Below, one piece after another: positions 12,489 through 27,367 of a stretch of DNA of 64,000 nucleotides. This DNA is from Thiolapillus brandeum (GTDB lineage Bacteria > Pseudomonadota > Gammaproteobacteria > Chromatiales > Chromatiaceae). The notes below the pieces were generated by a model. That model was given only the letters and a program-made list of their open reading frames with translations, was not told the DNA's origin and made no database searches. A program made the translations under genes and the position numbers. Numbering within the stretch: position 1 is the first letter of the stretch; every line of letters begins with the position of its first letter. The stretch covers positions 1,116,001 to 1,180,000 of the forward strand of contig NZ_AP012273.1 in NCBI RefSeq assembly GCF_000828615.1, in the 5' to 3' direction.

Positions 12489-15080
12489 ATGCGGATGGAT
12501 AAACTTACAAGCAAATTTCAACTCGCTCTGGCCGATGCCCAGAGTCTCGCCCTGGGAAAGGACCATCAGTTCATCGAGCCCGTGCACCTGATGATTGCCA
12601 TGCTGGATCAGGAAGGAGGCGGTGTGCGTCATCTCCTTACCCAGGCGGGTGTGAACGTCAACCAGCTGCGTTCCAGCCTGGGTGAAATTCTCGACCACAT
12701 GCCCAGCGTCTCCGGTGGGGATGCCGATGTGCATGTTTCCAATGACCTCAATCGTCTGCTCAACCAGACAGACAAGCTGGCCCAGAAACGTGGTGACCAG
12801 TATATTTCCTCGGAGCTTTTCGTTCTTGCTGCCGTGGAAGACAAGGGGCCATTGGGTGATGCCATGCGCAAGGCCGGCGCGAGCAAGGGCGTCATCGAAA
12901 AAGCTATCGAAAATGTACGTGGCGGCCAGGCTGTGGATGATCCCAATGCCGAGGATCAGCGCCAGGCGCTGGAAAAATACACTATCGACCTGACTGAGCG
13001 CGCCGAGCAGGGCAAGCTGGATCCGGTCATTGGCCGGGACAGCGAAATTCGTCGCACTGTCCAGGTTTTGCAACGACGCACCAAGAACAATCCGGTACTC
13101 ATCGGGGAGCCTGGTGTGGGCAAGACCGCCATCGTGGAAGGACTGGCCCAGCGTATTGTCAATGGCGAAGTCCCCGAGGGTCTGAAGAACAAGCGTCTCC
13201 TGTCCCTGGATATGGCAGCACTCATCGCCGGTGCCAAATTCCGGGGTGAGTTCGAGGAACGCCTCAAGGCCGTGCTCAATGACCTGGGCAAAGCCGAAGG
13301 GCAGATTATCCTGTTCATCGACGAAATTCACACCATGGTAGGCGCCGGGAAGACCGAGGGTTCCATGGATGCCGGCAACATGCTCAAACCGGCCCTGGCC
13401 AGAGGTGAGCTGCATTGCGTGGGCGCCACCACTTTGGACGAATACCGTCAGTATATCGAGAAAGATGCGGCCCTGGAGCGCCGCTTCCAGAAGGTGTTGG
13501 TGGATGAGCCCAGCGTAGAAGACACTATTGCCATTCTGCGGGGGCTGAAAGAGCGCTACGAGGTGCATCATGGGGTGGAGATCACTGATCCGGCCATTGT
13601 TGCAGCGGCGACACTTTCTCACCGCTACATTACTGACCGGCAACTCCCGGACAAGGCAATCGACCTCATCGACGAAGCTGCATCACGCATTCGTATGGAA
13701 ATTGATTCCATGCCGGAGGAAATGGACAAGCTGGATCGCCGTATCATTCAGCTCAAGATCGAGCGCGAGGCTCTGAAAAAGGAAACCGACGAGGCTTCGA
13801 AGAAGCGTCTTGCTGCTTTGGAAGAAGAGATCGAGCGCCTGGAGAAGCAGTTTTCCGATCTGGAAGAAATCTGGAAAGCGGAAAAGGCCGCGGTACAGGG
13901 CACTACCCACATCAAGGAAGAGCTGGAGCGTGCCCGTATCGAACTGGAAACCGCCCGCCGGGCAGGTGACTTGCAGCGTATGTCCGAGATCCAGTACGGC
14001 ATCATTCCCCAGCTGGAGCAACAGCTCGCGGCAGCGGATGAGGCCGAGCACATGGATTTTCAACTGTTGCGCAACAATGTCACCGACGAAGAGATTGCAG
14101 AAGTGGTGTCCAAGTGGACAGGCATTCCCGTGAGCAAGATGCTCGAGGGCGAGCGTGAGAAGCTCCTCAAGATGGAAGAGAACCTGACCAAACGCGTAGT
14201 GGGGCAGGATGAGGCAGTCAAAGCGGTTTCCGATGCCATTCGGCGCTCCCGTGCCGGGTTGTCCGATCCCAACCGGCCCAATGGTTCCTTCCTGTTCCTT
14301 GGACCCACGGGTGTGGGCAAGACCGAACTGTGCAAGGCTCTGGCCGAGTTCCTCTTCGACACGGAAGATGCCATGGTGCGTATCGATATGTCGGAATTCA
14401 TGGAGAAACATTCCGTGGCACGGCTCATCGGTGCGCCTCCCGGCTATGTGGGCTATGAAGAAGGTGGTTATCTCACCGAACTGGTGCGGCGCAAGCCATA
14501 CTCCGTGATCCTCATGGATGAAGTGGAGAAGGCCCATCCGGATGTGTTCAATGTGCTGCTCCAGGTGCTGGATGATGGTCGCCTGACCGACGGCCAGGGA
14601 CGTACTGTTGATTTCCGGAATACGGTTATCGTCATGACCTCCAACCTGGGTTCACACCTGATCCAGGAAATGGCTCATACCAATGACTATGAGGCCATGA
14701 AGACAGCGGTTATGGAAGTCGTGGGTCAGCATTTCCGTCCCGAGTTCATCAACCGGGTGGATGAGACCGTGGTATTCCATCCTCTGGGACGTGAGCAGAT
14801 CCGCAAGATTGCGACCATTCAGATCGAGCATCTGAGGCAACGTCTGCATGAAAGGGATTTACAGCTGGAGATCAGCAATGCCGCCCTGGATCTGCTGGGT
14901 GAGGCCGGATTTGACCCGGTGTATGGAGCACGACCCCTGAAGCGGGCTATTCAGCATCAACTGGAGAATCCCCTGGCACAGAAGATACTTGCCGGTGAGT
15001 TTGGCCCTGGAGACCTTGTCACAGTGGATGCCAGTGGTGACCAGCTGGTGTTTGGTCGTAAACAGGGAAATGCTGATTAA
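12489..15080 (+). CDS. clpB: ATP-dependent disaggregase ClpB
   Basis: This 863-residue Hsp100 protein pulls polypeptides out of aggregates together with DnaK. In order: an N-domain (about 1-145), AAA-1 with Walker [10 protein letters not shown] and Walker [10 protein letters not shown], the coiled-coil M-domain (about 400-530, rich in Glu/Lys, present and full length), and AAA-2 with GPTGVGKTE and a Walker [10 protein letters not shown]. The N-terminal M-R-M-D-K-L-T matches the family start. The M-domain separates it from ClpA and ClpC. It is preceded by a sigma-32-type promoter and followed by a terminator, so it is probably monocistronic. Confidence 0.97.
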
Positions 15081-15887: not shown

Positions 15888-17024
15888 ATGGTGAAGCATA
15901 ATACATCATTTGTGCAGGGGTCTGAATCGACAAGCCGGAAAGAAGGGAATGTTATTCCATTCATTACTGCGGAAGAGCAATTCGTGGTTATTGTGGATGA
16001 CCAAGCCACGGGTAGAACCATACTGGAGAGTATCATCTCAGCGATTTCTCCAAAAATTACCTGTAGGGCTTTTGCCGATGCCAGGGAAGCATTGGCATGT
16101 TGCACGACACGAGTTCCGGATTTGCTGATCACTGACTACAAGATGCCGGGTATGAACGGAGTGGAACTGACCCGTGCGGTAAGAAATCTTCCCAAAGGTG
16201 CCGATGTTCCCGTTGTCGTAGTGACCGTGGTGAACGATCGGAAGATCCGCTACGAATCACTGGAAGCAGGGGCCACAGATTTTCTGTCCCGGCCCTTTGA
16301 CCACTATGAGTGCCAGGCCAGGTGCCGCAATCTGCTTTTGTTGCATCAACATCAGAAAGAAGCCGCAGACCAGGCTCTTCTGCTCCAGGGGTTGGTGTCC
16401 AAAGCGACCAAGGAGGCGGTTACCAGGGAAGAGGAAACGCTCATGTGCCTGGCCAAGGCGGGTGAGTATCGAGATGAAGGTACGGGCAACCACGTATTTC
16501 GCATGGCCAGGTATTCTTATGAAATCGCCCGGGGTCTTGACCTGGAAGATTTTCATTGCAATCTTATCGATAAAGCGGCCCCCCTGCATGATATTGGCAA
16601 GATAGGCATCTCTGATTCCATCCTTCTCAAACCTGCCCGGCTTACTCCGGAAGAACGCCGTATCATGGAAACCCACACCACCATTGGTTATGACATTCTC
16701 AAGGACAGTACCTCTGCCTATCTGTCCATGGCGGCGAGCATCGCCTTGCATCACCATGAACATTTTGACGGTAATGGGTATCCCCATGGCCTGAAAGGAG
16801 AAGAAATTCCGGTGGAAGCAAGAATTGTTGCGGTTGCCGATACACTGGATGCCCTGATGACCGTCCGCCCTTACAAGGATGCCTGGCCCCGGGAAAAGGC
16901 GTTGAGCTACTTGCGGGAACATTCCGGCAGTCACTTTGATCCTGACTGTGTAGATGCATTGTTTTCCAGAGAAGCTGAAGTTCGCAGAATCTACCAGGAA
17001 CTACCGGATAAGTATCAGGATTGA
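15888..17024 (+). CDS. rpfG: RpfG-type response regulator with HD-GYP c-di-GMP phosphodiesterase
   Basis: The 378-residue protein has a receiver domain (about 30-150; phospho-acceptor D83 in LLITDYKMPGMNG) and an HD-GYP domain with catalytic H234-D235 (LHDIGKIGI) and GYP at 297-299 (HEHFDGNGYPHGL). This is the RpfG arrangement, in which phosphorylation by RpfC activates c-di-GMP hydrolysis. A hybrid kinase of the RpfC type and an RpfF homologue follow, so the assignment rests on both domains and context. In Xanthomonas rpfG lies downstream of rpfC; here it lies upstream. A separate small repeat-bearing region divides it from rpfC, so the two may not be co-transcribed. Confidence 0.88.
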   Translation: MVKHNTSFVQGSESTSRKEGNVIPFITAEEQFVVIVDDQATGRTILESIISAISPKITCRAFADAREALACCTTRVPDLLITDYKMPGMNGVELTRAVRNLPKGADVPVVVVTVVNDRKIRYESLEAGATDFLSRPFDHYECQARCRNLLLLHQHQKEAADQALLLQGLVSKATKEAVTREEETLMCLAKAGEYRDEGTGNHVFRMARYSYEIARGLDLEDFHCNLIDKAAPLHDIGKIGISDSILLKPARLTPEERRIMETHTTIGYDILKDSTSAYLSMAASIALHHHEHFDGNGYPHGLKGEEIPVEARIVAVADTLDALMTVRPYKDAWPREKALSYLREHSGSHFDPDCVDALFSREAEVRRIYQELPDKYQD

Positions 17025-17028
17025 ATAT

Positions 17029-17112
17029 ATGGACAAGGAAGATGTGCTCAAACTACTGAGAAAAACGGTTCCAAAATCCCCATCGGATTCTCTTCCCGAA
17101 TCCAACCAATAA
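17029..17112 (+). CDS. Possible 27-residue small ORF after rpfG
   Basis: An ATG four bases after the rpfG stop, with AGGA in the rpfG end as ribosome site, opens a hydrophilic 27-residue frame (MDKEDVLKLLRKT and on) ending at TAA. It has no recognised homology. It may be a real small gene, a truncated leftover of a longer downstream gene, or chance. Confidence 0.25.
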   Translation: MDKEDVLKLLRKTVPKSPSDSLPESNQ

Positions 17113-17131
17113 TCGCAACATCACCCGATGT

Positions 17132-17294
17132 GGCGTCCAGTCATATGGAAGCGGGGTGCGTAGCAGTAACGAGCTTGCGAGGTTGTTGCGTAGTACTCGG
17201 TGACCAGGACGACTGGGGGACTAATGAGTTGTCAAAGGCTGAGTCGATTTTGGGGGCTGGGATGCCCCAACTCTATCACGAGGTCGAAGACATG
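17132..17294 (+). repeat. 163-bp direct repeat, left copy
   Basis: This segment matches 21294-21456 in the same orientation and at the same length, with scattered substitutions. The core AACGAGCTTGCGAGGTTGTT is identical in both. The copies are 4,162 bp apart and bracket rpfC-rpfF. Neither copy has a shared long reading frame. Confidence 0.8.
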
Positions 17295-17494
17295 TTTGTC
17301 TGGGTTTGGCGTCAGAGCCACCAAATCGAGGCAGTAACTGACTCTCTTTCAGGTTCATGTGTTGCCGTTATGCTATGAATTTGGGCGATATTCAGTGCAC
17401 CAGGAGGGCAATACGATCCTAAAGGATTGGTAGTTGGCATGGAAGGATAGGAAAATAGCTATAACCAAAAATGTTATGATGGAAGCTGTCCACA

Positions 17495-20074
17495 TTGGAC
17501 GGGAAGTGCCGACCGTTGAGTTATTTCAGATCCGTTAAGTCACGATTCGTCAATCGCTACAACCGGGTTGATGTTGAACAGGCGACCATCCGCCTGTTTA
17601 TCTCTGTGGGCCTTTTTGTGTATCTGGTACTTACACACCATCTGGCCGACGAAAAAAGTGATTCAGTTGTATCGCTACTGAATTTGTCCGTAGGATTTAC
17701 CCTTTTCTCGGCGGTGTTGTGGATCTGGACATTAGTCGCCAAAAGCGACCCTACAATTGAGCGTTATGTAGGTATCTTCGGGGATGTGGCAACAACGACG
17801 ATCGCCCTGATCATCGGTGGAGAAACGATTTCACCCGTCTACATCATCTATATCTGGATCAGTATTGGCAATGGCTTTCGGTTCGGCCTCAAGCCCCTGT
17901 ATATTACTTCAGGGCTCAGCATCATGGGATTTATGCTGGCCATAACGTACAGTGGGTTTTGGAGCGAACATATTACCTTGAGCGTGGGGTTGTTGCTCGG
18001 GATTCCTGCCATATCGTTCTACACGGCACTGCTGCTTAAACGCCTGAATCTGGCCATGGAAAAGGCCAAAGCGGCCAACCAGGCCAAGAGCAGTTTCCTG
18101 GCCAATATGAGTCATGAGATACGCACCCCTTTGAATGGGCTCGTAGGCGCAACCGACCTGCTCCTGGACACGCCCTTGAATATGGAGCAGCGAGAACTGA
18201 TTCATACTGCTCATGAATCCGCAGAAACTCTGTTGTCACTGATCACGGGTATCCTGGATATTTCCAAAATAGAGTCCGGCCAGTTTGATGTGGTGGCAAA
18301 GGACATAGATTTCACGGTATTTGTCCGATCAACGGTACGTATGCTACAGACCATTGCGGAGAATCGTGGGCTGTCCCTGAGTCTTATCTTATCGCCGGAA
18401 GTGCCCGTTTACCTGCGAATCGATGTCCAGTTGGTGCGTCAGGTGCTCTTTAATCTGATCTACAACGCCATCAAGTTCACGGAGAAGGGCAAAATAACTG
18501 TGTTAATATCAACAGTTCAGTCCGATTTGCCATCTGATAAGACCATGTTGTTGGTCGAAGTTATCGATACCGGAGTGGGCATTTCTTCGGCGGATCAACA
18601 AAGGATATTCCAGCGATTCGAACGCGCAAGAGACAACCGCCCCGAGCAGCCAGGCATAGGATTGGGAACCACCATCAGCAAGCAACTCGTTGAGCTGATG
18701 GGGGGCGAAATAGGCGTAGAAAGCACCTTGGGAAAAGGCAGCCGGTTTTACTTCACCGTGCCCGCTGAAGTGCAGTCTAAATTGGCAACTATGGTAGAAG
18801 ACATGCAGTTGAAACGTAACATACTTGTGGTAAGTGGTGAGGATAGTACCTGTCATCAGCTTAGCGAGTATCTGGAATCCTGGGGAGCAGAGGTGACCTG
18901 TGTTTCCACCCTGTTGCGTGCCGGTGCCAAGTTGCTGGAAGCAAACGACCAGGGTACCCCTTACACCTTGATCGTTGTCGATGAAAACTCGGGCCTGAAT
19001 GCCCTGAACGCCGTTGAACTGCTCAGTGGCGAAAAGATATTTGAGGGAATCCAGCTCCTGTTGCTGGCCGACAATCCCAGCCGTAACCGGCTGGAAGAAC
19101 TGTACAGAACAGGGTATGACTCCGTGATATCCGCACCCGTGAGCAAAACCAGCCTGTTCAATGCGCTGCATGCATTGCATTACGGGGTGACCGAGAGCAG
19201 CAATGGCGTGTCTGTGCTTGAGGACTATCGACAAAAGCAGGGTGGAACGCATACTTACAATATCTTGGTGGCGGAAGACAATCCGACCAATCAGCGCATT
19301 GTGAGGAAAATCCTGGAACGGGGAGGCCATCAACCCCTGATAGTCAATAATGGCGAGGAGGCGTTGGAAGCGCTGCAGGAACATCAGTTTGACCTGGCCA
19401 TCGTGGATATGCAGATGCCTGTCATCAGCGGCCTCGAATTGATCAAAATCCACAAGGCGGCCACTATCGGGGAGCCGCCCTTCCCCTTTATCGTACTCAC
19501 CGCCAATGCCACCAGTGAAGCGGCAAAGGCTTGTCAGGAGGTCGGTGCTTCTGTTTACCTGACTAAGCCCCTGAGTACTGAAGAACTGCTCAGTGCGATT
19601 GAGCGAGTGATGGGGAACGAGCGATATGAGTACAGTGCAAGGACAAGCATTATACGCCCGCAGATGTTCGCCTACACCGAAGAAGGCGGCAGGAAACTGG
19701 TGTTGGATCGCCAGGTACTGGCGGATCTTGAGAGTTTGAATGTTGGCCAGAATAGCCAGAAATTCATGAAAGACCTGATTGAAGGGTTTTTTAATGATGC
19801 AGAGATATTGCTGAATAACATGGAGCAGGCCGCCGCCAAGGCCAAAACGGCGGATTACAGGGAGTACGCCCACGCGTTGGCGGGTATCGGTGCAGGAGTG
19901 GGTGCCATACTGCTGCTCAATGCGGCATCAGCCGTGTCCGGCATGGACGATTTGAAATTCTTCCGTAAACGCGAAGAAATCCATGCTGACATCCACAACG
20001 CATACAACTTGTCCAAACAGGCGCTGCTCGCTTATCTGGCGCAGTACCTGGACAACGGTGAGTTGCAGCAATAG
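17495..20074 (+). CDS. rpfC: RpfC-type hybrid sensor histidine kinase (DSF receptor)
   Basis: An N-terminal membrane region of about five helices (residues 33-185) contains [12 protein letters not shown], which matches the RpfC sensor region. It is followed by a histidine kinase core (H207 in [12 protein letters not shown]), two receiver-like domains and a C-terminal Hpt (H793 in [15 protein letters not shown]). The second receiver is canonical (D638 in IVDMQMP, KPLS). The first, about residues 440-560, lacks the conserved lysine and looks degenerate. RpfC binds DSF fatty-acid signal and phosphorylates RpfG. The start is a TTG with GGAAG nine bases upstream; an in-frame stop at 17477-17479 rules out longer forms and no early in-frame ATG exists. 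rpfF is convergent, as in Xanthomonas. Confidence 0.9.
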
Positions 20075-20081
20075 CCTTGAT

Positions 20082-20105
20082 GCCTTGTCCCTCCCGGGGC
20101 AAGGC
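20082..20105. terminator. Hairpin between convergent rpfC and rpfF
   Basis: Arms GCCTTGTCCC (20082-20091) and GGGGCAAGGC (20096-20105) pair over ten positions with one mismatch around a four-base loop. There is no T-run on either side, so terminator function is inferred only from position. Confidence 0.5.
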
Positions 20106-20131
20106 AGTTCAAGACCACGAGATACGAGGCA

Positions 20132-21001
20132 TTATGCTGCCTGGCGCATCTTTTCCATGAGCTTTTGCTGGCGTTTGACCAGGATCTCCATCACGCGCAG
20201 GTCTTTTGCGGTCAGGCGCATGGCGGCTTCCACCCAAATTTCTACCACATCAATCATTTCCTGATATTCAATTGGGGGATTCACCCTTTGAGCGGTGGCC
20301 CGGACAGCCATGGCCCCGTTGAACGCTTTGCTGTGTTTTTTGATGTAACTGTGTACGGCGTCCACACCTTCACCTTTTTTCGCCAGCACATCCACGATGC
20401 CCATCTCATGCAGGGCTTCGGCGGTGTGGGTGTCACCACTCAGAATGAAATTTTCTGCCTTGGTGGGGCCGATCTTGCGCGATAGCATACTGTAAGCACC
20501 CATGCCGGGGAAAAGGTTGAACAGGATTTCAGGAAGACCCATCTGCACACCTTCTTCAGCAATCATCACATTATTTGACATTGCCGCTTCGAAACCACCC
20601 CCCAGGGCAGACCCTTGAATCAAGCCGATGGTGGTCATGTTCGGTAGGTCGAAACTGGCGTAGTTGGGATGTACCACGTCGATGCAGGCCCTCGCGTACT
20701 CGGACAGTGTTTTGCGGTCTTTGTTTTGAATGAGTTCCCGGAACAGGCCCAGATCCCCACCAAGATTCCAGACATCAGGGAGCGCAGATTGCCATACAAA
20801 GTAATCGATCTCCAGCAGGCCATCAGCCACGACGTCATGGGCCTTTTGCTGGAGATCGTGAATCTCGCGGAGAATCGTTGGGTTGAAACATGGGCGAGGA
20901 CCGGGAGCCATCTGGCACCAAGCGGTCTTCGTGGCAAGGTCAACGCTTACCTGGAGCTGGTTATAGGAAGGGAAGGGATTACCTGGCTGAATATGTTGCA
21001 T
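20132..21001 (-). CDS. rpfF: DSF synthase RpfF (crotonase family)
   Basis: The chosen ATG (complement of 20999-21001) follows GAGGAA and gives 289 residues, the length of Xanthomonas RpfF; a longer frame to 21067 is unlikely. RpfF has acyl-ACP dehydratase and thioesterase activity and makes cis-2-unsaturated fatty-acid signals. The two glutamates typical of RpfF are visible 20 residues apart, E138 in ALGGGFEAA and E158 in GLPEILFNLFPGMGAYS. Other matches are the C-terminal IEYQEMIDVVEIWVEAAMRL. These features separate it from beta-oxidation enoyl-CoA hydratases. It is transcribed toward rpfC. Confidence 0.92.
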   Translation of the reverse strand: MQHIQPGNPFPSYNQLQVSVDLATKTAWCQMAPGPRPCFNPTILREIHDLQQKAHDVVADGLLEIDYFVWQSALPDVWNLGGDLGLFRELIQNKDRKTLSEYARACIDVVHPNYASFDLPNMTTIGLIQGSALGGGFEAAMSNNVMIAEEGVQMGLPEILFNLFPGMGAYSMLSRKIGPTKAENFILSGDTHTAEALHEMGIVDVLAKKGEGVDAVHSYIKKHSKAFNGAMAVRATAQRVNPPIEYQEMIDVVEIWVEAAMRLTAKDLRVMEILVKRQQKLMEKMRQAA

Positions 21002-21591
21002 GATCGTTCCTCTTGTTGGATTACGATGGAGTGATACAGGGTGTTCCTGTATTGTCCCGTAAATCATGGCCTAGCAATGGGGAAGGGTTCAAGTTATTTC
21101 GTGTCGTATTCTTCGGCACTGAATGCTCCTGAGTGCTGTTGAACAAGGGGGAAGCAATCTTGGTTCGGGACGAGCCGACGCTGCGAGTTATAGAGAGCGT
21201 TGCAAAGGTGAATAGTCCCCAGTAGCTGCGAGTCCGCACTGTTTTTCCGGCGTATCTTGCGCCAGAGGGAAAACAAAGTAGGTCTCCGAACGCGGCGTTC
21301 AGTCATTGGGAGCCAAGTATGGAGCAGCAACGAGCTTGCGAGGTTGTTGCGTAATACTTGGTGACCAAGACGGCTAGGGCACTAATGAGTTGTCAAAGTC
21401 CGAGTCGATTTTGGGGGCAGGGATGTCCCAAAATCTATCACGAGGGCGAAGGCATGCTTAAAATAGGATGATAGTCATACAAAAATAGAATGATAACCTA
21501 TTGAAAAATAAGGAAACGAAAAATATATCTGGATTTATTTATTCGAGCCTGTCAATATTTGCCGCATAATTTTCAACTGATTGGAATGGCT
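21002..21591. other. Intergenic region rpfF / aceE
   Basis: About 590 bp separate the divergent rpfF and aceE starts. The middle contains the right copy of the 163-bp repeat (21294-21456); the last 100 bp before aceE are strongly AT-rich and are the likely aceE promoter region, though no clear -35/-10 pair stands out. No gene is recognised. Confidence 0.5.
21294..21456 (+). repeat. 163-bp direct repeat, right copy
   Basis: Partner of 17132-17294. In this copy CCAAGTA (21313-21319) and TACTTGG (21355-21361) can pair to close a stem-loop whose inner arms include CAGCAAC and GTTGTTG. The left copy keeps the inner part but the outer pairing is weaker. Confidence 0.8.
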
Positions 21592-24249
21592 ATGGCAGAA
21601 ATCAACGACATCGATCCCCAGGAGACCGGGGAATGGCTGGAGGCTCTGGAGGCCGTGTTGGAGAACGAAGGCGCGGAGCGTGCCCACTTCCTCCTTGAAC
21701 AGCTCATTGAAAAGGCTCGCCTTTCAGGCGCCTACCTTCCCTACAAGGCTACCACCGCCTATCTGAATACCATTCCGCCATCGAAGCAGCCGCCATTCCC
21801 GGGCAACCGGGCCATGGAGCGCCGTATCCGTTCATTTATACGCTGGAATGCCATGGCCATGGTGGTGCAGGCCAATCGCAAGGAGCCCGAGCTGGGAGGG
21901 CATATCGCCAGCTTTGCTTCCAGCGCTACGCTCTTTGATGTGGGATTCAACCATTTCTTCCGGGGCAGCAATGAAGACAAGGAAGGGGATCTGGTGTTCT
22001 TCCAGGGGCATTCCGCACCGGGGATCTATGCCCGGGCTTTCCTGGAAGGACGAATCACTGAAGATCAGCTCAACAAGTTCCGCCAGGAGTCCGGAGGTGA
22101 TGGCCTGTCTTCCTATCCCCATCCCTGGCTGATGCCCAATTTCTGGCAGTTTCCCACGGTGTCCATGGGATTGGGTCCCCTGATGGCCATATATCAGGCA
22201 CGTTTCATGCGCTACATGCACGATCGGGGCATGGCGGACATGGATCATCGCAAGGTGTGGGCCTACATGGGCGATGGTGAGATGGATGAGCCGGAGTCCC
22301 TGGGCGCCATTTCCCTGGCCTCACGGGAGCGCCTGGACAATCTGGTATTCGTGGTCAATTGTAACCTGCAGCGTCTGGATGGCCCGGTGCGTGGCAACGG
22401 CAAGATTATTCAGGAGCTGGAGGCCGTGTTCCGGGGGGCCGGCTGGAACGTCATAAAAGTCGTCTGGGGCGGTTACTGGGATCCCCTTATCGCCCGGGAC
22501 AAGAAGGGACTGCTGCGCAAACGCATGGAAGAAGCCCTGGATGGCGACTACCAGGCCTATAAGGCCAAGGGCGGTGCCTACACGCGGGAGCATTTTTTCG
22601 GCAAGTATCCGGAGCTCCTGGAAATGGTTGCGAATATGAGCGACGAGGATATATGGCGCCTGAACCGGGGTGGCCATGATCCCATCAAGGTCTATGCCGC
22701 CTACAAGGCTGCCATGGAGCATCGGGGCCAGCCTACAGTGATTCTGGCCAAGACAGTGAAGGGCTACGGCATGGGGGAAGCCGGGGAAGGGCAAAACATC
22801 ACCCATTCCCAGAAGAAGATGGGAGAGGATGCCCTGCGGCATTTTCGGGATCGTTTCAATATCCCCATCCCCGAGGACCAGCTGTCCTCGGCACCGTACT
22901 TCAAGCCTGCGGAAGATAGTGAGGAAATGAAATATCTCCATGAGCGCCGCCAGGCTCTGGGCGGTTACCTGCCGTCCCGCCGCACCGAAGCCCAGTCTCT
23001 GGAAGTGCCGGGACTGGACGCATTCCAGGCTCTTCTGGAAGGCAGCGGCGAGCGGGAGATGTCCACCACCATGGCCTATGTGCGCTTCCTCACCAGCCTG
23101 TTGCGGGACAAGAAGGTGGGTAAGCATGTGGTGCCCATTGTTCCTGATGAGGCGCGCACCTTTGGCATGGAAGGCATGTTCCGTCAACTGGGGATCTATT
23201 CCCACGTGGGCCAGCTATACACACCCATGGATGCGGATCAGGTCATGTATTACCGGGAGGATGTGAAAGGCCAGATCCTCCAGGAAGGTATCAACGAAGC
23301 CGGGGCCATGTCCTCATGGATCGCGGCTGCGACATCCTATTCGAATCATGGCGTGCCCATGATTCCCTTCTATGTCTATTACTCCATGTTTGGTTTCCAG
23401 CGGGTAGGGGATCTGGCCTGGGCCGCCGGAGACATGCAGGCACGGGGCTTTCTCATGGGCGGCACGGCCGGGCGCACCACCCTGTCCGGTGAGGGTCTGC
23501 AGCATCAGGATGGCCACAGCCACCTGGCTTCGGCGGGGATTCCCAATTGCCGTTCCTATGATCCGACCTTTGCCTACGAGCTGGCCGTGATCCTCCAGGA
23601 TGGTATGCGGCGCATGTATGCCGAGCAGGAGAATATCTTCTACTACGTCACCATCATGAACGAGAATTATGTTCACCCCCCCATGCCCAAGGGGGTGGAA
23701 GAGGGTATCGTCAAGGGCATGTACCTGTTCAAAGCGGGTTCGCGCAAGAAGAAGCGCGTGCAGCTCATGGGCTCGGGTACGATTCTGCGGGAGGTCATTG
23801 CAGCAGCAGAACTGCTGGAAAAGGACTGGAAGATCGCAGCCGACGTGTGGAGTATCACCAGTTTCACGGAACTGGCCCGGGATGGCATGGAATGCGAGCG
23901 CTGGAACCGCCTGCATCCCATGGAAAAGCCGCGCATGCCTTATGTGACGCAGCAGTTGAAGGACGCCCAGGGTCCCGTGGTAGCCTCCACGGACTATGTA
24001 CGCATGTTTGCTGACCAGATTCGTCCCTATCTGGACGGGCGTGGCTGTATCACTTTGGGTACGGACGGCTTTGGCCGATCCGATCTGCGCCGCAGGTTGC
24101 GGGAGTTTTTTGAGGTCAATCGTCATCATGTAGCAGTGGCCGCCCTCAAGGCTCTGGCGGATGAAGGCAGTGTGGATGCCGACCTGGTGGCTCAGGCCAT
24201 CAAGGCCTACCGTATCGATCCTGAAAAACCCAACCCGACCAAGGTGTGA
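21592..24249 (+). CDS. aceE: Pyruvate dehydrogenase E1 component, homodimeric type
   Basis: AceE decarboxylates pyruvate with thiamine diphosphate and acetylates the E2 lipoyl group. The protein is about 885 residues, close to E. coli AceE. The ThDP-binding motif is GDGEMDEPES with NCNLQRLDGPVRGNGK, and other family blocks are FFRGSNEDKEGDLVFFQGH, SSYPHPWLMPNFWQFPTVS and LGTDGFGRSD. I chose ATG 21592 (MAEINDIDPQETGEW) because it aligns with the family start; ATG 21586 and a TTG at 21559 are alternatives. aceF follows after 11 bases. Confidence 0.96.
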   Translation: MAEINDIDPQETGEWLEALEAVLENEGAERAHFLLEQLIEKARLSGAYLPYKATTAYLNTIPPSKQPPFPGNRAMERRIRSFIRWNAMAMVVQANRKEPELGGHIASFASSATLFDVGFNHFFRGSNEDKEGDLVFFQGHSAPGIYARAFLEGRITEDQLNKFRQESGGDGLSSYPHPWLMPNFWQFPTVSMGLGPLMAIYQARFMRYMHDRGMADMDHRKVWAYMGDGEMDEPESLGAISLASRERLDNLVFVVNCNLQRLDGPVRGNGKIIQELEAVFRGAGWNVIKVVWGGYWDPLIARDKKGLLRKRMEEALDGDYQAYKAKGGAYTREHFFGKYPELLEMVANMSDEDIWRLNRGGHDPIKVYAAYKAAMEHRGQPTVILAKTVKGYGMGEAGEGQNITHSQKKMGEDALRHFRDRFNIPIPEDQLSSAPYFKPAEDSEEMKYLHERRQALGGYLPSRRTEAQSLEVPGLDAFQALLEGSGEREMSTTMAYVRFLTSLLRDKKVGKHVVPIVPDEARTFGMEGMFRQLGIYSHVGQLYTPMDADQVMYYREDVKGQILQEGINEAGAMSSWIAAATSYSNHGVPMIPFYVYYSMFGFQRVGDLAWAAGDMQARGFLMGGTAGRTTLSGEGLQHQDGHSHLASAGIPNCRSYDPTFAYELAVILQDGMRRMYAEQENIFYYVTIMNENYVHPPMPKGVEEGIVKGMYLFKAGSRKKKRVQLMGSGTILREVIAAAELLEKDWKIAADVWSITSFTELARDGMECERWNRLHPMEKPRMPYVTQQLKDAQGPVVASTDYVRMFADQIRPYLDGRGCITLGTDGFGRSDLRRRLREFFEVNRHHVAVAALKALADEGSVDADLVAQAIKAYRIDPEKPNPTKV

Positions 24250-24260
24250 GGAGCAAGCTC

Positions 24261-25544
24261 ATGGCGAATCTGAAAGAAATCACCCTGCCGGACATTGGCG
24301 ACTTCAAGGATGTGGAGGTTATTGAGGTACTGGTCTCTGCTGGCGATACCATCAGTGCGGAAGATTCCCTCATCACCCTGGAGAGCGACAAGGCCTCCAT
24401 GGAGATACCCTCCCCTGTGGGCGGTTTGATCAAGGAAGTGAAGGTCAAGGTAGGCGATATCATCAACCAGGGGGATCTCCTGGTGGTGGTGGATCAGGAG
24501 ACCGCTCCCGAGGAAACTGCTCCTGTGGCGCCGCCCAAGCCTGTGGACAGCATCCCCCATCCTGCGCCGCCTGCTCCCGGAGAGAAGAAGGCCAAACCCC
24601 TGCCGGTCGCTCCCACCCAGGATGACATGCCCAGCCGCAAGGCCCATGCCAGCCCCGCAGTGCGTCGTTTCGCCCGGGAACTGGGGGTGGATCTGGGGCG
24701 GGTCCAGGGAAGTGCGCCCAAGGGACGCATCACCAAGAAAGACGTACAGAACTTTGTCAAGTCCACCCTGTCCAGCAGTGGTGCAGCAACGTCTGCTGGT
24801 GGTTCCCTGGCCTTGCCGTCCATGCCTGAAGTGGATTTCTCCAGGTTTGGTCCTGTCGAGGAGGTGGAGCTGGGGCGCATCAAAAAGATCAGTGGTGCCC
24901 ATCTGCATCGCAGCTGGATCACTGTGCCCCATGTCACCCAGTTCGACGAAGCCGACATTACCGATCTGGAAGCCTTCCGCAAAGGGCAGAAGGATGAGGC
25001 CCTGAAACAGGATGTACGCCTCACCTTCATGCCTTTCCTGATGAAGGCCTGTGAAGCGGCCTTGCGCGAGTTCCCCGAGGTCAATGCCTCTTTGTCTCCC
25101 AACGGAGAGCACCTGATCATGAAGAAGTATCTGCATATCGGTGTGGCCGTGGATACGCCCAATGGCCTGGTAGTACCGGTGATTCGTGATGTGGATCAGA
25201 AAGGTGTCTACGACCTGGCCCGGGAACTCATGGACATCAGCACCAAAGCCCGGGACGGCAAGCTTGGACCGGCAGACATGCAAGGGGGGTGTTTCACCAT
25301 ATCCAGCCTGGGAGGTATTGGCGGCACCCAGTTCACACCCATCGTGAATGCGCCGGAGGTGGCCATTCTTGGGGTATCGCGGGCGAGCATGAAGCCGGTC
25401 TGGAACGGAAAGAAATTCAAACCACGGCTGGTCATGCCTTTTAGCCTGTCCTATGATCACCGGGTTATCGACGGTGCCCAGGGAGTACGCTTCACCACCT
25501 ATCTCGCCGGGCTGTTGTCCGATATACGCCGGTTGGTGTTGTAG
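24261..25544 (+). CDS. aceF: Dihydrolipoyllysine-residue acetyltransferase (PDH E2)
   Basis: The 427-residue protein has one N-terminal lipoyl domain (about 1-80, lipoyl lysine in ESDKASME), a Pro/Ala linker, a peripheral subunit-binding domain (HASPAVRRFARELGVDL, about 130-165) and the C-terminal acyltransferase core ending in SLSYDHRVIDGAQG, the catalytic DHRxxxG motif. It transfers acetyl groups to CoA. E. coli AceF has three lipoyl domains; one is common in other proteobacteria. GAGGAG precedes the ATG. Confidence 0.96.
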   Translation: MANLKEITLPDIGDFKDVEVIEVLVSAGDTISAEDSLITLESDKASMEIPSPVGGLIKEVKVKVGDIINQGDLLVVVDQETAPEETAPVAPPKPVDSIPHPAPPAPGEKKAKPLPVAPTQDDMPSRKAHASPAVRRFARELGVDLGRVQGSAPKGRITKKDVQNFVKSTLSSSGAATSAGGSLALPSMPEVDFSRFGPVEEVELGRIKKISGAHLHRSWITVPHVTQFDEADITDLEAFRKGQKDEALKQDVRLTFMPFLMKACEAALREFPEVNASLSPNGEHLIMKKYLHIGVAVDTPNGLVVPVIRDVDQKGVYDLARELMDISTKARDGKLGPADMQGGCFTISSLGGIGGTQFTPIVNAPEVAILGVSRASMKPVWNGKKFKPRLVMPFSLSYDHRVIDGAQGVRFTTYLAGLLSDIRRLVL

Positions 25545-25588
25545 CTTTTGCTGCCACACCCAGAAGTAACAACTACAGGTCTTTGCAA

Positions 25589-27367
25589 ATGAGCAATACA
25601 ATTGAAGTGACTCTTCCCGATATTGGCGACTTCCCCGAGGTCGAGGTGATCGAAGTGCTGGTAAAGCCCGGTGACACCATCGAGAAAGAAGACTCCATCA
25701 TCACCCTGGAGAGCGACAAGGCGTCCATGGAGATCCCCAGTCCCGAAAGTGGAGTGGTGAAAGAGGTCAGGGTAAGCGTGGGGGACAGGATTTCCCAGGG
25801 AAGCCCGCTGCTGTTGCTGGAAACCGGAAATGCCGGCGGGCAGGCTGCTGCTTCGGAAACGGAAAAAACCACACCGAAGCCAGCCCCTGTTTCGGAAAAG
25901 GCTCCTCCTGTCCGGCACGCCGACAGCGCCCCCGTAGCTGCCGTGGAAGGTGTGGCGGATATCCGCACCCAGGTACTGGTGCTGGGAGCTGGCCCTGGGG
26001 GTTATTCCGCTGCCTTCCGGGCGGCCGACCTGGGCATGAGTGTGGTGCTGGTCGAAAAATATGCCGACCTGGGGGGGGTATGCCTGAACGTGGGTTGTAT
26101 TCCCTCCAAGGCCCTGTTGCATACCGTGGACATCATCAATGAAGCGGCAGAACTGGAAGCCATGGGAGTAAGTTTCGGCAAGCCCAGTGTCGATCTGGAT
26201 AAACTGCGCGCCGGCAAGGACAGGGTGGTGAAAAAACTCACCGGTGGCCTGGCTCAGATGGCCAGGATGCGCAAGGTACAGATCGTCCGGGGCTGGGGGC
26301 AGTTTCAGAGTCCTAAAACCCTGTCCGTGGAAGCAGAAGGGCAGCAGACCCTCATCGAGTTCGATCATTGCATCATCGCCTGTGGGTCTTCCGCGGTGCA
26401 GATCCCCGGCTTTCCCAACGATGACCCCAGGCTCATCGATTCCACCGGTGCCCTGGCCCTGGAAGATATTCCCAGGCGCATGCTCATCATTGGTGGCGGC
26501 ATCATCGGCCTGGAGATGGCCACGGTGTACAGCACCCTGGGCAGCCGCGTGGATATCGTGGAACTGCAGGATGGCCTGATTCCCGGTTGTGACCGGGATC
26601 TGGTCAAGCCCCTGCAAAAGCGCCTGGACAAGCAGGTGAACCGGATTCTGCTCAAGACCAGCGTGGAAAGTATCAAGGCCCTCAAATCCGGATTGAAAGT
26701 CAGCTTTGCCGGGGACAATGCCCCTGAAGACACGACTTACGACAAGGTTCTGGTAGCCGTAGGCCGCCGCCCCAATGGCCATCAGATCAATGCCGCGGCG
26801 GCGGGTGTCGAAGTGGATCAGCGCGGATTCATTGCCGTGGATCAGCACATGCGCACCAACGTGCCGCATATCTTTGCCATCGGTGATGTGGTGGGCAATC
26901 CCATGCTCGCCCACAAGGCCACCCACGAGGCGCATGTGGCTGCCGAAGTCATCGCCGGCCTGCCGGCCATGTTCGATCCCCTCACCATTCCTTCCGTGGC
27001 CTACACCGACCCGGAAGTGGCCTGGATGGGGCTGACGGAAACCGAAGCAAAGGAAAAAGGCATCAGGTACGAAAAGTCCGTGTTCCCCTGGGCGGCTTCC
27101 GGTCGGGCCATTGGCGTGGGCCGGGACGAAGGTATGACCAAGCTCCTGTTCGATCCCGATACCAGGCGCATTCTGGGCGCGGGCATCGTGGGTGTGAATG
27201 CCGGTGAACTCATCGGCGAAACCGTGCTCGCCCTGGAGATGGGAGCGGATGCCGAGGATATCGGCCTGACCATCCATCCCCACCCGACCCTCAACGAAAG
27301 TATCGGCCTGGCAGCAGAGGCTGCTGAGGGCAGTTGCACTGACCTGCCGCCCCAGCGCCGGAAGTAG
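25589..27367 (+). CDS. lpdA: Dihydrolipoyl dehydrogenase (PDH E3) with N-terminal lipoyl domain
   Basis: The 592-residue protein carries its own lipoyl domain (about 1-80, ESDKASME) joined by a Pro/Ala-rich linker to a standard FAD/NAD disulfide oxidoreductase. The redox pair is in GGVCLNVGCIPSKALL, FAD and NAD folds are at VLGAGPGGYSAAF and IIGGGIIGLEMATV, and the C-terminal catalytic stretch is HPHPTLNES. E3 enzymes with a fused lipoyl domain occur in several beta- and gammaproteobacteria. It is the third gene of the PDH operon, 44 bases after aceF. Confidence 0.96.
   Translation: MSNTIEVTLPDIGDFPEVEVIEVLVKPGDTIEKEDSIITLESDKASMEIPSPESGVVKEVRVSVGDRISQGSPLLLLETGNAGGQAAASETEKTTPKPAPVSEKAPPVRHADSAPVAAVEGVADIRTQVLVLGAGPGGYSAAFRAADLGMSVVLVEKYADLGGVCLNVGCIPSKALLHTVDIINEAAELEAMGVSFGKPSVDLDKLRAGKDRVVKKLTGGLAQMARMRKVQIVRGWGQFQSPKTLSVEAEGQQTLIEFDHCIIACGSSAVQIPGFPNDDPRLIDSTGALALEDIPRRMLIIGGGIIGLEMATVYSTLGSRVDIVELQDGLIPGCDRDLVKPLQKRLDKQVNRILLKTSVESIKALKSGLKVSFAGDNAPEDTTYDKVLVAVGRRPNGHQINAAAAGVEVDQRGFIAVDQHMRTNVPHIFAIGDVVGNPMLAHKATHEAHVAAEVIAGLPAMFDPLTIPSVAYTDPEVAWMGLTETEAKEKGIRYEKSVFPWAASGRAIGVGRDEGMTKLLFDPDTRRILGAGIVGVNAGELIGETVLALEMGADAEDIGLTIHPHPTLNESIGLAAEAAEGSCTDLPPQRRK

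Follow-up and report, generated by a model that had tools for sequence, protein, structure and literature searches.

In Xanthomonas, the rpfGHC operon of the diffusible signal factor (DSF) system is convergent with rpfF (PMC4504480). In Stenotrophomonas maltophilia, RpfF and RpfC vary as matched pairs between rpf-1 and rpf-2 strains and horizontal exchange of the pair has been proposed (PMC4517397, PMC7283896). There, rpfC and rpfF stay convergent and the rpfF variants share 71% nucleotide identity. RpfF, RpfC and RpfG are also known from the chemolithotrophs Leptospirillum and Acidithiobacillus, and DSF-family compounds have been reported from Leptospirillum cultures (PMC8357829, PMC9040811). 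Here we describe rpfG, rpfC and rpfF of the vent sulfur bacterium Thiolapillus brandeum, contained in a stretch of 64,000 nucleotides (contig NZ_AP012273.1, positions 1,116,001 to 1,180,000; hereafter the window) of a genome that consists of a 3,129,662-base chromosome and two small contigs. The Hiromi 1 genome paper already names RpfC/RpfG and a DSF network (PMC4136832), and thus the presence of the locus in the strain is known. The probable exchange of its rpfC-rpfF unit is new here. Comparison with related genomes suggests, as the most probable reading, a DSF-type locus in which species of the genus have exchanged the rpfC-rpfF unit at a fixed site, rpfG and the aceE side remaining orthologous. 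The milder precedent in S. maltophilia differs in that the proteins compared here are only 40% (RpfF) and 30% (RpfC) identical, the genes stand in inverted order, one congener has an empty site and repeats bracket the pair. In the literature searched, from which subscription journals were mostly absent, no report of rpfC-rpfF exchange in this genus was found, and Stenotrophomonas, with its two closer variants, was the only DSF case of this kind. The features discussed below are as follows; handles in G and L denote genomes and loci, respectively.

15888..17024, + strand: rpfG, REC-HD-GYP response regulator of 378 amino acids (Response_reg and HD_5), common to congeners, 92% identical to that of G004
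17495..20074, + strand: rpfC, predicted hybrid kinase of 859 amino acids (sensor helices, HisKA, HATPase, pseudo-receiver, REC, Hpt), TTG start at 17495 or at 17516
18794..19216, + strand: pseudo-receiver domain of RpfC, residues 434-574, mean predicted local distance difference test score (pLDDT) 89.2 in the AlphaFold2 model
20132..21001, - strand: rpfF, predicted DSF-type synthase of the crotonase family, 289 amino acids (311 from 21067)
17025..21459, no strand: putative exchanged cassette with the two flanking repeats, devoid of congener DNA homology except for short stretches in the rpfC and rpfF coding regions
17132..17298, + strand: repeat R, truncated direct copy, 167 bp, 85% identical
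21177..21459, + strand: repeat R, full-length copy, 283 bp; congener homology is back at 21460 or later
12489..15080, + strand: clpB, upstream neighbour, common to G004 and G008 only
21559..24249, + strand: aceE, downstream syntenic anchor, followed by aceF and lpd (aceE-aceF-lpd block, 21559-27367)

Fifteen genomes of the genus were searched, ten of which, including that of the window, carry an rpfG of at least 72% identity. The site between rpfG and aceE holds a different pair, here called type A, in eight of the ten, is empty in one (G006) and is of the window type in one. Five carriers (G001, G004, G008, G009, G010) have rpfG, rpfF, rpfC and aceE on a single contig, with RpfG 75-92%, RpfF about 40% and RpfC about 31% identical to the window by BLAST; in G003, G005 and G014 the type A genes are split over contigs. 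Across all eight carriers, RpfF is 38-40%, RpfC about 30%, RpfG 72-92% and AceE 92-97% identical to its window counterpart (no AceE was seen in G003). For instance, RpfG of G004 matches that of the window at 92% while RpfC does so at 30%. Type A also has the inverted order, rpfG-rpfF followed by a convergent rpfC (G-F-C versus G-C-F in the window). DNA homology between the window and type A loci ends no more than about 10 bases from the rpfG stop codon (earlier in G014) and returns between 21460 and 21590. In G009 it is back at 21460, which is the right edge of the second repeat copy, and in the other congeners slightly later. In G006, aceE follows rpfG directly, and the spacer matches the two outer type A flanks of the sister genome G009, as a clean deletion would leave them; homology at the joint is short and imperfect. 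A third kind of pair, type B, occurs in seven of the 15 genomes (RpfF in G002, G003, G004, G005, G006, G007 and G010, the last being a partial RpfF typed by its RpfC) and lies on fetched stretches without rpfG.

In the RpfF tree, the window protein and that of Sedimenticola sp. BM503 (G039) are sisters (support 100/99), type A is sister to the family member G021 (99/94), and type B falls in a third clade. Approximately unbiased (AU) tests reject the window and type A as one clade for RpfF (p 0.00118) as well as for RpfC (p 1.2e-6), and a single origin of the two pairs is therefore rejected. The RpfG tree joins the window to G004 at 100/99 inside a ten-genome clade. Named twins of other loci (L093-L098, L100, L101, L106) were dropped, and partial RpfF proteins (L022, L032) and L133 were removed before the RpfF tree, in which the bootstrap had not settled. 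RpfG trees were built without L099, L102 and L103. The RpfC tree contains 50 chosen rows, with about ten further RpfC proteins left out, several of them from Thiodiazotropha; a long branch, L125, next to type A calls for caution in reading it. More careful trees comprised 32 of the 60 RpfG rows and 28 of the 50 RpfC rows.

Across the 32 loci with all three genes (L077 and L085 excluded), the distances of RpfF and RpfC correlate at 0.84, and at 0.76 when RpfG is taken into account (none of 999 permutations was as high), whereas the correlation between RpfF and RpfG falls from 0.58 to 0.19 given RpfC. Thinning to 26 loci left the partial values at 0.64 and 0.18, respectively. Synthase and receptor thus travel as a unit, with the output regulator following them less closely. 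Taken on these comparisons, the rpfC-rpfF pair appears to behave as an exchangeable cassette.

Direct copies of a repeat, designated R, occupy both spacers around rpfC-rpfF and are 85% identical over 166 bases; the first lies in the 470-bp spacer between rpfG and rpfC. Scoring of all 14 candidates in the T. brandeum genome gave five long copies, two of them at the rpf locus, and one fragment. Of the rpf loci compared within the genus, only that of the window has bracketing repeats, and no direct repeats of at least 40 bp were found in the four type A loci checked. At E 1e-6, repeat R was detected in 31 of 210 family genomes. It is about 285 nucleotides long and structured: across ten copies, both-sided changes were counted at 22 of 80 predicted pairs, a value reached by none of 500 shuffles and compared with 2 to 6 for slid structures, but further pair types did not exceed the shuffles, 438 of 500 of which scored as high. 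The copies studied were those at 21177-21459 and 17132-17298 of the window and L223, L224, L225 and L227-L235; comparison of repeat R with Rfam gave no match. Exchange of rpfC-rpfF probably went by recombination in the flanks or in the bracketing copies, and may in the latter case have been repeat-mediated.

Copy number of repeat R is perhaps high in some genomes, where up to 380 first-look candidates were counted, four of which were scored. The idea that a transposase regularly accompanies the repeat was considered and rejected, as the open reading frames near 12 copies share only translations of the repeat itself and one weak ABC-ATPase pair. One copy is interrupted by an IS110-family element whose transposase is split over two frames (L223:~500-1730; G000:C1 about 1027500-1028730).

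The sequence-only reading of the locus had taken its gene order to be unlike that of Xanthomonas. This is wrong, as the rpfGHC genes of Xanthomonas are likewise convergent with rpfF and the order in the window is that of Xanthomonas minus rpfH. Its further statement that rpfH and rpfB are missing holds at the locus, where no acyl-CoA ligase gene was found either; the whole genome has eight AMP-binding matches, one of which adjoins a FadB-like gene. The locus further resembles that of Xanthomonas campestris in the REC-HD-GYP output protein, the catalytic and pocket residues of RpfF and a predicted multi-helix membrane sensor with an IGNG stretch. It differs in the missing rpfH and rpfB, in DSF-docking residues that are changed in an ungapped alignment, in an RpfF that stays under an equivalog cut-off and in an extra pseudo-receiver of RpfC that is not known from Xanthomonas RpfC. 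Unlike the window, the rpfFCG clusters of Leptospirillum run one way (PMC8357829). As to completeness, which had also been claimed, rpfG, rpfC and rpfF are all real genes; RpfC/RpfG and the DSF network of this genome were already in print. Scans of the locus for promoters and terminators gave no clear excess over shuffles (6 versus 6.6 and 9 versus 7.1, respectively), and a search of the locus against Rfam gave no match.

RpfF is well supported as a DSF-type synthase by its residues and relatives. The two glutamates, E138 and E158 in the numbering of the 289-residue form, are 20 residues apart as previously noted; a length of exactly 289 residues, in contrast, requires the ATG at 21001, whereas the open reading frame opens at the ATG at 21067 and encodes 311 amino acids. 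All 11 catalytic or pocket positions checked, the oxyanion glycines included, were taken from PMC9864630 and PMC9040811 and agree with Xanthomonas RpfF (G85, G86, L136, G137, G138, E141, E161, G169, M170, W258 and L276 in Xanthomonas numbering). The best solved relatives are 7zq7, 6dgn, 5fus and 3m6m, with 178-196 bits as compared to 57 for any other hydratase. Two of these four are deposited as RpfF; 5fus and 7zq7 are RpfF of Burkholderia and of a xanthomonad, and 7zq7 pairs with the 3m6m RpfF at 100/100 in the RpfF tree. RpfF of the window falls inside this tree of 75 RpfF-like proteins, three of them solved, whereas the two enoyl-CoA hydratase rows of its own genome, the only outgroup and on long branches, stay outside (83/95). 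Phylogeny, which had been proposed as a check, thus groups the protein with characterised RpfFs and not with beta-oxidation hydratases. The active site of type A RpfF carries Ala in place of Gly138 of the Xanthomonas numbering in all seven rows (L019, L023, L025, L029, L030, L031, L033), and in the three type A rows whose motif was read it is LGAAFEA, versus LGGGFEA in the window; the first of these changes also occurs in L036. This replacement may alter the activity of type A RpfF.

RpfC of the window has the architecture of a predicted multi-helix membrane sensor followed by HisKA, HATPase, REC and Hpt, with the phospho-residues, and the DSF-sensor membrane stretch of an RpfC-type hybrid kinase, as reported earlier, is present. 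Pfam recognises HisKA, HATPase_c and REC; the Hpt match is weak (17.9 bits, cut-off 24.6), yet its histidine is invariant, as H207, D638 and H793 are conserved in all 34 RpfC proteins aligned. An additional receiver-like domain is predicted with good order between the kinase core and the true receiver, its best structural match being a receiver (TMq 0.73). In this pseudo-receiver, conservation of the Asp position and of the acidic start is incomplete among the proteins aligned. Among solved structures, the best matches of RpfC are kinase cores, and the RpfC receiver 3m6m_D is also listed. In RpfG, the intact HD and GYP motifs noted before are borne out by D83, H234 D235 and G297 Y298 P299, which are invariant in the seven RpfG proteins of the genus that were aligned; the best solved relative is the metal-dependent phosphohydrolase 4mcw. 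With 27 GGDEF matches, two of them close together and perhaps one split gene, and five PilZ matches, the genome evidently encodes a cyclic di-GMP (c-di-GMP) network.

Which of the two pairs is the newcomer can be approached through the flanking genes. In an aceE+aceF protein tree of 12 genomes, the window groups with the type A carriers G004, G008 and G001 (93/96) and, more closely, with G004 (94/94), and the tree rejects a grouping that unites the eight remaining close congeners, seven with type A and one empty, to the exclusion of the window (p 0.0088). Four-fold identities place G004 nearer to G008/G001, but both kinds of data nest the window among type A carriers. Hence, it is probably the window that is the altered member and its pair that arrived late. 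Several points weigh against this reading and against the exchange as such. Sedimenticola sp. BM503, whose pair is the sister of the window pair, likewise has the order G-C-F; RpfG of the genus and of BM503 as a clade was not rejected (p 0.072), whereas RpfF of BM503 together with L104/L105/L131 was (p 0.0148). The upstream side of rpfG varies among the congeners, with clpB (97-98%) only in the window, G004 and G008, a gene for an ABC-type ATPase in G005, G009, G010 and G014, and another gene in G001. The repeats may have landed in the spacers independently of any exchange. Window and type A represent different species, and the other nine of the ten genomes are fragmented metagenome assemblies. 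Finally, G+C content had to be rejected as a mark of transfer: the pair of the window is lower than its flanks, but the type A genes and rpfG are low as well.

If, conversely, the window kept an ancestral rpfG-rpfC-rpfF trio and its congeners took up the inverted type A pair on two or three occasions, T. brandeum would be the unaltered member and the exchange would lie in its relatives. In favour of this, the order G-C-F also occurs in BM503, L104, L105 and L131, whose RpfG proteins group near those of the genus. The kinship of RpfF and RpfC from the window and BM503 is also not contradicted by ClpB, which is 83% identical between the two and 77-79% between the window and the genomes of L104, L105 and L131, yet reaches 81-84% in other family members as well. 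However, the nested position of the window in the aceE+aceF tree and the rejected carriers-only clade mean that this alternative needs several arrivals of type A. Furthermore, type A RpfF and RpfC divide the genus alike, and the bracketing repeats are, among the loci compared, confined to the site of the window. We thus consider an ancestral trio rather unlikely, though it is the strongest of the competing explanations. Very little speaks for an ordinary, vertically inherited locus in which fast evolution and a local inversion lowered the identity of rpfF and rpfC. Although RpfC generally evolves faster than RpfG (59-61% among type A where RpfG has 71-75%), an RpfG of 92% next to an RpfC of 30% in one genome pair, the AU rejections and the existence of nearer kin of both proteins in another genus (67% and 49%) make such a history highly improbable.

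The two remaining alternatives concern function. That RpfF is a housekeeping crotonase and not a signal synthase could be argued from its score of 225 bits against the NCBI RpfF equivalog model NF053515 (cut-off 550, applied to the RpfF of the window alone) and from its assignment to the broader crotonase model NF006452 (361.8 bits, cut-off 177). Its clear preference for the solved RpfF-like structures, the position of the hydratases of its own genome outside the RpfF tree, long branches notwithstanding, its place beside rpfC in most, albeit not all, fetched loci and its co-divergence with RpfC render this very improbable. A loss of DSF sensing by RpfC, which would then respond to another cue or be fixed in an on or off state so that the locus no longer served quorum sensing, deserves somewhat more weight but is still improbable. 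Xanthomonas RpfC binds DSF through R15, D17, S18, E19 and Q22 (PMC5391125), and the window has Y, R, V, D and Q at these sites; one of the five is kept without gaps, whereas a two-residue gap restores four (R, D, E and Q). All five residues, with Thr counted as Ser, are present in 13 of 43 anchored RpfC proteins, a rough count as anchoring failed in seven of 50 and was misplaced in at least two (L113, L131). Type A and type B sensors are altered too, mostly retaining two and three of the five, respectively, which fits different signals as well as loss; moreover, the phospho-residues are kept and the structural model is ordered. The earlier proposal that the host signals with a DSF-type molecule is well supported as far as synthase, sensor and output regulator are concerned, whereas DSF itself is only a possible ligand of RpfC, given the docking residues changed in the ungapped alignment.

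Under the exchange that we favour, the circuit would work as follows. From the residues observed and the properties of its family, RpfF would make and release a cis-2-unsaturated fatty acid. At low signal RpfC would hold RpfF, as is known for Xanthomonas (PMC4517397); at high signal it would sense the fatty acid and pass phosphate along a His-Asp-His-Asp chain to RpfG. As a predicted phosphodiesterase, phosphorylated RpfG would then be expected, as in its family, to lower c-di-GMP. Both pair types would drive one shared RpfG, which would respond to the signal made and sensed by the pair present at the site. Provided that the contact between Hpt and RpfG is its main connection with the rest of the cell, a synthase-receptor pair could be swapped and the circuit left intact.

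Gram-positive peptide signalling is well known for matched alleles of signal and receptor that are swapped while the output stays the same. A comparable pherotype switching, with rpfC-rpfF as a mobile dialect module under a fixed rpfG and the structured repeats as exchange points, is conceivable here but tentative. If true, exchange of the pair would alter the fatty acid that is made and heard while leaving the output pathway untouched, and T. brandeum would not hear the signals of its congeners. This genus of sulfur oxidisers, in which a single site holds either of two deeply divergent pairs or none and several genomes have a third pair elsewhere, offers a test of private DSF dialects under one RpfG, and this in non-pathogenic bacteria, one of which is in culture.

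Some further observations concern individual relatives. Sedimenticola sp. BM503 (L073/L106) shares the order G-C-F with the window and has the 67% identical RpfF and 49% identical RpfC mentioned above, but its RpfG is only 55% identical and its genome contains no copy of repeat R at E 1e-6. Its single rpfF is flanked by two rpfC genes of different types, the second of which follows rpfF. Within the genus, rpfG of G001 and G008 (L019, L029) has only 74-76% DNA identity to that of G004 (L023) where flank genes have 88-89%, which would fit a single exchange of rpfG itself. A recent transfer of type A from the G008 lineage into G004 was considered and dropped, because the flank genes are equally close and rpfG of G001/G008 is the outlier. 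In Ca. Thiodiazotropha and related lucinid symbionts (L107, L109, L110, L111, L113, L114, L116, L117, L118, L123), rpfG is accompanied by a shorter kinase-like gene and a convergent rpfC, and no rpfF match adjoins these genes. All of rpfG, rpfC and rpfF are present on L127, a contig labelled Nitrospirae; its RpfF groups with gammaproteobacterial proteins, possibly owing to wrong binning.

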